DNA of 64,000 nucleotides, from NCBI GenBank assembly GCA_039707465.1, contig CM077647.1, positions 117,740,610-117,804,609 on the forward strand. The letters are read 5' to 3'. Position numbers and translations under genes: made by a program. Shown in pieces: positions 24,901 to 27,900 of the stretch (its first letter is position 1; every line of letters begins with the position of its first letter). The notes under the pieces were generated by a model. The model saw only the letters and a program-made list of their open reading frames with translations. It did no database searches and was not told the DNA's origin. The DNA comes from Rhabdophis nuchalis. Taxonomy: Eukaryota > Chordata > Lepidosauria > Squamata > Natricidae.

Positions 24901-27900
24901 CTAGGATTTAGACTTGATTTGTATTCGTCCTCTTAATGTATATGTTACTGGAGAATTGACTTTGTAGCACAGCAGGAAGTTGGTGTGTGTGTTTGAATGC
25001 TGCTGTTTGCTGTTTTTTAAAGGACTTCTAGCCCTCCGCTGGGGTTACTGCAGCAGGAATTCATACCTGTACTACAGCCCAGCATGCAGACTGCTGACAG
25101 GTACAAAGCAGGAGGACATCCCTGCTCATAGTGTGCTGTCTTTTCGTCAATATGTTGTACTGGTCATGGTTATCAGACCTTTGTTAATTCCATGCTTTTG
25201 TTCTTCATTTGTGCCTACATCATTTGGCAAATTGTTTTATTATTGTTAACATTTGTTATTTTTTCATAAGTTACTGGCCCATGTATGTTAAACTTTTAAG
25301 TGGATCTCTGTATAATAAAATAATGATGCTCTTTTTTTTTCTGGACAAACTAGTCCATTCTTTTATAATGTAGCTAAACATTGACTTTAATTTGTTAAGA
25401 CTGGCAAGGATTTTCATGGAATTTTTCATATTCTTTACTTTTGCTACATTGCTTGTTCCTATTTTCTTTGCCTCTTGAGAAGCAAATTTGACTATTAGCA
25501 GTGGAAGAAAATTGATCTATTCAGTTTTGTTAGTAATCTTGGAGACATATATGTGTGTGTGTGTTTGTTACGTTTTTGAGCTGATCAATACATCTCTGGT
25601 GATGAGCCGAAAGGCAGAAAAGGAAACAGTATGCTTCCTCCCTTAATTGGGGCCCTAACAGGGCGTTGTGGAAACAATTACACACACACATACACACATA
25701 CACACACACACACACGTGAGGTTTTTGAGCTGATCAATAAATAAATCAGGGAGACTAGGATAGATCTATTTCCAGCTTTTTAGCTGTCATCAGCTAGCCA
25801 TACCCTTACTTTTTTTTTTACATGTGTGTTAGGTTTTTGAGCTGATAAATAAATAAATAGCTTTCTATTTAAATAGCTGATCAGGAGGAGAACCTGGTGG
25901 CTTAGTGGCTAAAACATCTACCTAACATGTAATAAAGCCCCAGTTCAAATCCCAGTAAGGGTATGGTTAGCTGATGAGAGCTAAAAAGCTCGAAATAGAT
26001 CTATCTTAGTCTCCCTTATTTATTTGTTTGTTTGTTTGTTTGTTTGTTTATTTGCTCAAAAACCTAACACACATGTAAAAAAAAACCACAACAAAACTAA
26101 TAGCTTTCTGTCTAGATGGTCTCTGGTGATGAGCCGAAAGGCAGAAAAGGAAAGCAGTATGCTTCCTCCCTTAATTGGGGCTTACCAGGGTGTTGTGACA
26201 CAAACATATCTATATAAATAAAGTTAACTATGTGTTTGTTCAAAACCACTAATCTCAGAAACTACTGCACCAATCGTCACCAAATTTTCACACAACGTTC
26301 CTTACAAGTGCAGCACCAATGATACATACAGATTGTGTGGATGGCACACCGGTGCCAGGTACACCCACACAAATGTACAACTGCAGCTGTTCTCACTCGC
26401 TCACTTGCTCCCCTCCCCTTTGTGGCGCCTCCCACCCGGCTGCTTTTCAGCTCACGTCTCTTGCACGCACGGTCTGCATCATATCTGCAACGGTCGCCTT
26501 CTCAGCAGCCTTTCTCCTCTGCCACCGCTGCTCCCCTTGCCACTGCCCCCCCGCCGCCGCTGCCCCCGCTGCCACTGCTCCCCCACCGCCACTGCTCCCT
26601 GCCACCACTGCCCCCGCCTCTGCTGCCCGTCGCCCCCTCACCGCTGCCGCCCCCGCCCCCAACAATAGATAGGTAGGTAGATGGATAGAGAGAGAGAGGG
26701 AGAAATACAATAGGTAGGTAGGTAGGTAGGTAGGTAGGTAGGTAGGTAGGTAGGTAGGTAGGTACAGGGATAGAGAGGGGGGAAATACAGGAGGCAGGTA
26801 GGTAGGTAGAGGCATAGAGAGAGAGGGAGAAATACAGGAGGTAAGTAAGTAGAGTAAGAGAGGGAGGGGAAACCAAGGCAGAGAAGAAAGGGGGTCGCTG
26901 AGAGGGTCTGTGAGGGGAAACTTTTTCATTTAACCAAACTTGGCCACATCAACGCATGGCGAATTGAAATTGAAATTGAAATTTATTAACCGCACCCTCT
27001 CCCCACAGGGACCCGGGGCGGTGCACAGGCAAAGCTAAAAACAATATACAATAAAATACAACATACATACATTAAAATAGAATTAAATAGTATTACCCGT
27101 GCTAAAAATATAAAATTAAGAACCCATTAAAATATTTGGAGTCAATAGACAGAGAGAACTATTCAAGGCCGGCCAGTCGAAAGAGATAGGTCTTTAATTT
27201 TACACGGAAGGAGCGGAGGTCAGTGGTCGTTCTAATATCAGGGGGAAGGTCGTTCCAGAGGGCCGGGCCCGCCACAGAGAGCGCCCTTCCCCTGGGCGTC
27301 GCCCGCTGACAAAGTCTAGTGGACGGCACCCGGAGAAGCCCCTCTCTGTGGGAGCGAATCGGTCGTGAGGATGTATGGGGCAGGATCCGATCTCGCAGAT
27401 AGCTAGGTCCCGAGCCATGGAGCGCTTTGAAGATGATAATTAACACCTTGAAGCGCACCCGGAAGACGACAGGTAGCCAGTGCAGCTCGCGCAAGAGCGG
27501 TGTAACGTGGGCAAACCTGGTGGTCCCCATAATTGCTCGCGCGGCTGCATTCTGAACTAACTGAAGCCTCCGGGTGCACCTCAATGGGAGCCCCATGTAG
27601 AGAGAGTTACAATAGTCCAGTCGGGATGTCACGAGGGCATGAGTGACTGTGCGAAGGGCGTCCCGATCCAATAGGGGGCGCAATTGGCGAACCAGGCGAA
27701 CCTGGTAAAACGCCCTCCTGGCCACGGCTGTCACTTGCTCTTCCATAGACAGCCGGGTATCCAGGAGGACACCCAAATTGCGCGCCCCATCCACAGGGGT
27801 AAGATGTTCGCCCCCTATGGCCAGCGTTGGAGAAAGCTGGTTGAATCCGGAAACCACAGCCACTCGGTCTTGGTCGGGTTGAGCCTAAGTCCGTTACTTC

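Follow-up and report, generated by a model that had tools for sequence, protein, structure and literature searches.

A snake non-LTR retrozyme with a tRNA-like head and a type I hammerhead, probably mobilised in trans by Penelope-like elements

The SMalpha and Sjalpha retroposons of Schistosoma carry pol III boxes. Like the snake repeat reported here they are SINE-like repeats with a type I hammerhead (PMC8490949), and as far as their description goes they differ from it in belonging to a host of another phylum. Metazoan non-LTR retrozymes are described as tandem repeats of ~300 bp and low GC that carry type I hammerheads, and those of salamanders have a short stem III with a palindromic loop and work better as dimers (PMC7229834). 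According to a 2020 review, retrozymes seem to lack promoters and no conserved motif reveals the autonomous element that moves the animal ones (PMC7761336). Axolotl Rtz331/353 and the newt satellite repeats share with the snake unit a type I hammerhead, ~300-bp low-GC tandem repeats, dimers and a short stem III with a tetraloop, and their hosts also have Penelope-like elements (PLEs) with minimal hammerheads (PMC7229834); compared by description, the snake unit differs in its tRNA-type pol III promoter and in head-to-head insertions at two fixed starts. Among PLEs, the Poseidon/Penelope element PAc of Anolis cuts and extends both strands, its reverse transcription (RT) starts 111-118 bp inside the frame in a stem loop rich in AC, and hammerhead cutting is dispensable for PLE insertion in vitro (PMC11167929). 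Head-to-head is the commonest inverted arrangement of Penelope (PMC3846280). PAc resembles the snake repeat in a hammerhead that lies shortly before the AC-rich RT start, in AT-rich targets and in both-strand extension (PMC11167929); however, a PLE encodes a reverse transcriptase and a GIY-YIG endonuclease and its hammerhead lacks stem III, whereas the retrozyme has no local PLE sequence. The Squam1/Sauria, Squam2 and Squam3 SINEs also have a tRNA-derived head (PMC10702118, PMC7983390) and are described as LINE-dependent, a description that sets them apart although the retrozyme may equal one of them. The words "hammerhead" and "ribozyme" are absent from the main text of PMC10702118 and of PMC13295347 (on Sauria SINEs), and neither an amniote retrozyme nor a PLE-dependent SINE was found among the matches listed in the open-access PMC literature. 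It may be that libraries of repeats already list this one by a different name.

We analysed a 64,000-nt stretch of the Rhabdophis nuchalis genome (the window), for which a sequence-only reading had reported, at 25888-26016, a tRNA-like head followed by a full type I hammerhead. Both the motif and its coordinates proved correct when checked against the sequence, while the proposed end of the unit at 26016 did not hold, the monomer being ~333 nt and the locus a compound head-to-head insertion (Table 1). The A and B boxes are separated by 33 nt, the tRNA-like spacing of a tRNA-derived SINE, and ARAGORN found no tRNA gene anywhere in the window. An outer stem and an internal loop extend beyond the inner stem I that had been recognised earlier, which is the layout of natural type I hammerheads, and the combination of a stem I internal loop with loop 2 is canonical for the hammerheads of retrozymes. 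Scanning the window for the full motif returned two matches, whose CTGATGA stands at 25971 on the plus strand and at 25793 on the minus strand; in 300 Markov-shuffled windows the number of matches was 0. There are four copies of the motif in the window, the core being intact in these two and carrying G12->A in the others (CTGATGA at 12178 (+) and 31730 (+)). The best Rfam match was Hammerhead_HH9 (RF02275), whose 28.2 bits (E 2e-4 in 2 kb) fall short of the gathering score, 52, and at E up to 3 this model covers three of the four copies (28.2-29 bits), the minus-strand copy at 25793 being absent; neither the window nor a set of 20 related loci has a match that reaches the gathering score of any Rfam family. 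HH9 is similar in its stem I internal loop and A-rich loop 2, yet HH9 and the amniote intronic hammerheads are described as few conserved intronic copies and not as a mobile family (PMC6155905), and the retrozyme stays at 28-29 bits. All three retrozyme clusters of the window (12.17, 25.87 and 31.68 kb) have the minus-plus, or head-to-head, form. Long simple-repeat arrays of the AGGTAGGT type lie at window positions 48600-49300 and 26660-26870, and a repeat related to them adjoins the retrozyme end at 12256.

Table 1. Retrozyme features in the window (unit numbers refer to the consensus monomer).
Feature	Position	Strand	Basis
Minus arm of the second head-to-head insertion (unit 131-307)	11995..12173	-	consensus BLAST
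Plus arm of the second head-to-head insertion; hammerhead with G12->A and A17	12169..12256	+	
Part b fragment of the retrozyme unit (217-300)	25593..25677	+	consensus BLAST
Second minus piece, intact hammerhead (CTGATGA at 25793, stem II CAGC/GCTG)	25716..25810	-	motif scan and consensus BLAST
Minus piece facing the plus arm (unit 134-182), making the minus-plus head-to-head junction	25811..25859	-	100% to consensus
Plus arm of the compound insertion, nearly one monomer (unit 325 round to 306)	25875..26209	+	BLAST of unit consensus: 90% identity, E 4e-130
Pol III A box TGGCTTAGTGG	25898-25908	+	sequence; identical 11-mer in unit consensus
Pol III B box AGTTCAAATCC (consensus GGTTCAAATCC)	25942-25952	+	sequence; consensus joint GGTTCAAATCCCAGTAAGGGTATGG
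Type I hammerhead, complete, directly 3' of the head	25957-26017	+	sequence, motif scan, Rfam match, covariation
Outer stem I AAGGG/CCCTT	25957-25961/26013-26017	+	
Stem I internal loop TAT/T, between outer and inner stem I		+	
Inner stem I GGTTAG/TTAGTC	25965-25970/26006-26011	+	
CTGATGA core	25971-25977	+	
Stem II GAGC/GCTC, loop TAAAAA		+	
GAA	25992-25994	+	
Stem III ATA/TAT, loop GATC		+	
C17	26005	+	predicted cleavage directly after C17
AT-rich spacer (expanded TTTG/TTTA repeat) and RT start site 1 CTCAAAAACCTAACACACA	26018..26085	+	3'-end pile-up
Rest of the monomer (part b) to start site 2 (GTTGTGACACAA and just beyond); arm ends at unit 306	26090..26209	+	
Minus arm of the third head-to-head insertion (unit 200-237)	31643..31680	-	consensus BLAST
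Plus arm of the third head-to-head insertion: partial head, B box, hammerhead (G12->A)	31679..31800	+	

In the ~333-nt monomer part b precedes the tRNA-like head, the hammerhead comes next, and an AT-rich spacer with an ACACA end leads back to b; tandem units are spaced 336-347 nt apart in four loci (L002, L005, L012 and L024). For copy ends and junctions we used 76 non-overlapping loci comprising 194 segments, L038, L045, L049 and L056 having been dropped for overlap with neighbours. Segments longer than one unit number 34 of the 194 and none extends beyond two units (maximum 628 nt), so the repeat has both the 150-450 bp monomer and the dimers of metazoan non-LTR retrozymes, and its GC content of 42.3% lies below the 45% limit of that class. 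At 333 nt the unit is too short for a reverse transcriptase or a GIY-YIG endonuclease and is therefore not itself a PLE. The sequence TTTT is absent from the unit, which is uninformative given that 48% of shuffles also lack it. The sequence-only reading had proposed a SINE that acquired a ribozyme; what stands of this is a pol III-type head joined to an intact hammerhead in a repeat family, and the repeat is better described as a non-LTR retrozyme, a tandem monomer with the head inside. What is new here, as read from the sequence, is the putative pol III-type promoter inside a retrozyme unit, plus the integration signature.

The family is large. In 1.92 Gb of genome (348 contigs), the exact 25-base joint between the B box and the hammerhead leader occurs 2,624 times, and intact-core hammerheads, with stem II partly left free, number 14,029, with no match to the reversed-pattern control in either case. 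A covarying third subfamily, C, with CTGAAGA, stem II (A/G)GGC/GCC(T/C) and stem III ATG/CAT adds 3,729 copies (control 0), bringing the intact-core total to 17,758 in one genome; its free outer stem II pair was standard, in a count by eye, in all but three of 100 matches listed. These numbers are lower bounds because only exact patterns were counted. A genuine ribozyme family had been expected to join head and motif elsewhere in the genome and to keep G12 and the cleavage-site base in its consensus, and both expectations are borne out, by the 2,624 exact joints and by G12 and a permitted base 17 as the majority state. The G12->A version of the core has 1,974 copies (control 0), and the 100 of these among the matches listed mostly read CTCAAAA for CTCGAAA, i.e. 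a CpG change. Pattern scans of viral and prokaryote contig collections gave 0 matches, as expected of an animal repeat. The hammerhead is no chance motif.

We also examined how the hammerhead has changed between copies. Counting only motifs spanned by the alignment of unit 71-140, which leaves out grossly broken ones (e.g. the central motifs of L048 and L052), there were 136 hammerheads, of which five with more than 6 gaps were removed; 74 of the remaining 131 lie in L031-L080, loci picked via the head joint and not by hammerhead state. In this sample G12 is kept in 64 of the 74 copies, and core and stems are intact in 49, with 25 failing the strict test. Compensatory double changes occur in each of the three stems, with pair 3 of stem I being TA in 60 copies and CG in 10, pair 2 of stem II AT in 65 and GC in 6, and pair 3 of stem III AT in 67 and GC in 6. 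Likewise, among 24 rows chosen for variety, 6 of the 18 pairs had changed on both sides, a number reached by 4 of 500 shuffles, and the covariation score was 0.191 compared with 0.126 in shuffles, none of 500 reaching it, while slid-strand controls stayed at or below 0.083. This pattern of paired substitutions indicates that the hammerhead is under structural constraint. RNAalifold kept stems I and II but paired part of the core otherwise in preference to stem III, and in a two-strand consensus fold ATAGATCTAT of one copy pairs with ATAGATCTAT of the other. We rejected part b (CTGGTGATGAGCCGAAAGGCAGAAA) as a second hammerhead, its candidate stems showing no covariation. As a separate observation, CTGGTGATGAGCCGAAAGGCAGAAA is one change from the PLE core CTGATGATGA and resembles a decayed hammerhead (window 25593-25626 and 26120-26153; unit 200-255).

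In the 194 segments the 3' ends concentrate at two fixed, AC-rich sites, and the 5' ends are scattered. Site 1, at unit 166-175 (CCTAACACACA), accounts for 78 of the 3' ends, and site 2, at unit 291-310 (GTGACACA and just beyond), for 46. Runs of (AC)n, (TA)n or (GT)n follow the 3' end in 36/60 flanks at site 1 and 13/39 at site 2, compared with 0/266 background 60-mers. Among the 5' ends, 16 fall at unit 131-140, within an ATTT repeat where the alignment is unsure. A cluster at unit 56-65, in the T-loop of the head (window ~25939-25948), has 22 of the 194 ends where 5.8 are expected (p ~1e-7); it is possible that RT stops there at a modified or structured T-loop. There is no pile-up of 5' ends at the hammerhead cut, with one of the 194 in bin 121-125 and one in bin 126-130, and the templates would therefore be mostly circular or uncut. 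Neither circles nor uncut RNA leave a mark at the cut site, and the copy ends give no support for cutting being needed.

Neighbouring segments are strongly biased in orientation. At junctions within 30 nt, 50 were minus-plus, 10 plus-minus, 6 plus-plus and 3 minus-minus, whereas at gaps of 31-150 nt there was no head-to-head bias (minus-plus 7, plus-minus 9). Among the matches listed for intact hammerheads, raw pairs no more than 500 bp apart gave a weaker bias (minus-plus 11, plus-minus 4, plus-plus 4, minus-minus 4), and the corresponding subfamily C counts, again among the matches listed, were 5 minus-plus, 6 plus-plus, 2 plus-minus and 2 minus-minus. In the 50 head-to-head pairs the arm ended at a start site in 30/50 minus and 32/50 plus arms, where chance gives 9.6%, leaving 20 minus and 18 plus arms that ended elsewhere. 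The two arms of a pair were also unusually alike: for the 34 of the 50 pairs that could be compared (16 shared too few positions), identity between arms was 95.3%, compared with 90.1% to other loci, and it was higher in 31 of the 34. Plus-minus neighbours (n=8; 87.2 vs 88.7%) and plus-plus neighbours (n=7; 85.0 vs 88.9%) were no more alike than strangers, and the minus-minus ones (n=2; 94.8 vs 89.0%) were more alike. Given the shared start sites and the alike arms, a head-to-head pair is most simply read as one event that copied related RNA onto both strands. An origin of these pairs by palindromic duplication or assembly artefact was rejected, since similar flanks were found in only 2 of the 50 clusters. 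At one locus, L006, the host flanks of a head-to-head insertion are mutual inverted copies (139 nt, 93%). A fixed AC-rich RT start, extension on both strands and a head-to-head product are together the marks of PLE-type insertion, and the retrozyme displays all three.

PLEs are abundant in the same genome. A PLE endonuclease query gave 3,140 candidates, of which 150 were scored. Every one of the 150 matches, the longest open frame having 1,011 residues, and one frame holds RVT_1 and a sub-threshold GIY-YIG. A genome search with the Pfam GIY-YIG model, in which 150 of 1,267 candidates were scored, gave one match, the PLE copies being below the reach of the model; this sole match we take to be host SLX1. 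Minimal PLE hammerheads (CTGAxGA-T-stem-TGAGAT-stem-GAAAC) number 4,158 (control 0), and those within 500 bp of each other show an orientation bias like that of the retrozyme (minus-plus 16, plus-minus 2, minus-minus 3, plus-plus 2, among the matches listed). The local PLE hammerhead has no stem III, a 6-bp stem II and the loop TGAGAT. The ends of four local PLE copies lie 50, 57, 85 and 85 nt beyond the hammerhead cut and are followed by (TA)n or a TA-start; in the retrozyme, start site 1 lies 48 nt beyond its own predicted cut. A tandem PLE array was seen at C3:7434283-7444431, with a 2,972-bp unit in three minus-strand copies followed by one plus, and a PLE endonuclease match lies at C5:117828459, ~24 kb past the right end of the window.

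The two kinds of element also lie together. A retrozyme is found in 10 of 23 PLE 3' flanks and in none of 19 control stretches 500 kb away (p 0.0008), the controls being those that were readable, with L120, which is all N, dropped. The association is retained on leaving out L082-L084, the three loci from which the idea arose (7/20, p 0.005), on merging L096 and L097, which look like one duplicated locus (9/22, p 0.0014), and with both changes together (6/19, p 0.010). Among the matches listed on contig C1, a subfamily C retrozyme lies within 1 kb of 18 of 67 PLE clusters (expected 0.16) and a retrozyme of the A or C list within 1 kb of 8 of 23 (expected 0.20), values reached by none of 2,000 shifts in either case; overall, among the matches listed, the frequency of retrozymes within 1 kb of PLE hammerheads is 40-110 times that expected from shifted positions. 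A common preference for simple-repeat targets could raise this co-location, and even then the shared structure of start site and head-to-head product would still need a common mechanism. Comparison of the retrozyme with the local PLE gave no similarity above chance level (best E 4.9), and the case for the mobiliser therefore rests on insertion structure and location, from which we conclude that the retrozyme is probably a SINE mobilised in trans by a PLE.

These data bear differently on three other explanations. The repeat might be an ordinary LINE-dependent SINE that happens to carry a hammerhead, its pol III transcript being inserted by target-primed reverse transcription (TPRT) with a CR1, L2 or BovB enzyme and its head-to-head pairs arising by twin priming and nested insertions. 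The tRNA head with A and B boxes would suit this, the pattern of fixed 3' ends with scattered 5' ones agrees with target-primed mechanisms of any kind, and CR1-like and L2-like frames were recognised by eye in the window. Twin priming, however, does not give both arms the same two RNA start sites, as is seen here in 30/50 minus and 32/50 plus arms; together with the simple-repeat runs that follow the 3' ends (36/60 and 13/39 flanks) and the strong link in location to PLEs, this makes a LINE-driven origin unlikely. A second possibility is that the repeat descends from PLEs, as a degenerate, non-autonomous solo pseudo-LTR family whose hammerhead is inherited from them and whose tRNA head was gained later. 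Hammerheads are present in PLE pseudo-LTRs (PMC11167929, PMC7761336), and the distance from the cut to the first RT start is 48 nt, the distances from the cut to the end of the four local PLE copies being 50, 57, 85 and 85 nt. Against such descent, retrozyme and PLE have no shared sequence, and the PLE hammerhead, with its missing stem III, 6-bp stem II and TGAGAT loop, contrasts with the full retrozyme motif and its outer stem I, and we hold a PLE ancestry to be quite improbable.

That the motif is a chance resemblance, or a fossil with no ribozyme function, might be suspected from the loss of G12 in two of the four window copies. All three stems covary, though, intact cores outnumber the G12->A form by 14,029 to 1,974, and that change falls mostly at a CpG (100 copies, among the matches listed), so a non-functional motif has very little to recommend it. 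We think it likely that the feature belongs to an abundant family of non-LTR retrozymes, the monomer of which carries a tRNA-type pol III promoter ahead of a type I hammerhead, and that this family moves by means of PLE protein acting in trans.

For such a retrozyme we propose the following cycle. Pol III would transcribe the unit, or tandem units, from the A and B boxes, and the transcript would process itself, as the sequence-only reading had suggested. By analogy with published relatives, the hammerhead would cut and a host ligase would close the products into circles; a dimer would probably cut best, given the short stem III and its palindromic GATC loop, as in the amphibian retrozymes. 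A PLE protein supplied in trans would then start RT at either of two ACACA sites in the RNA, which lie 48 nt and ~170-185 nt beyond the hammerhead cut. Extension on both strands of a target rich in AT or AC would yield the observed structure of two copies fused head to head with their 3' ends outward.

With somewhat more reserve, we lean towards a broader reading, namely that there is a class of SINEs dependent on PLEs and not on LINEs, in which a pol III-driven, hammerhead-cut RNA is copied onto both target strands by a PLE ribonucleoprotein. If this is true, it names both of the missing parts of animal retrozymes, the promoter and the mobiliser, and the family offers a concrete answer to these two questions within one genome. 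The idea raised in PMC7229834 that PLEs act in trans becomes directly testable, and a PLE-dependent SINE would extend the SINE concept past LINE partners.
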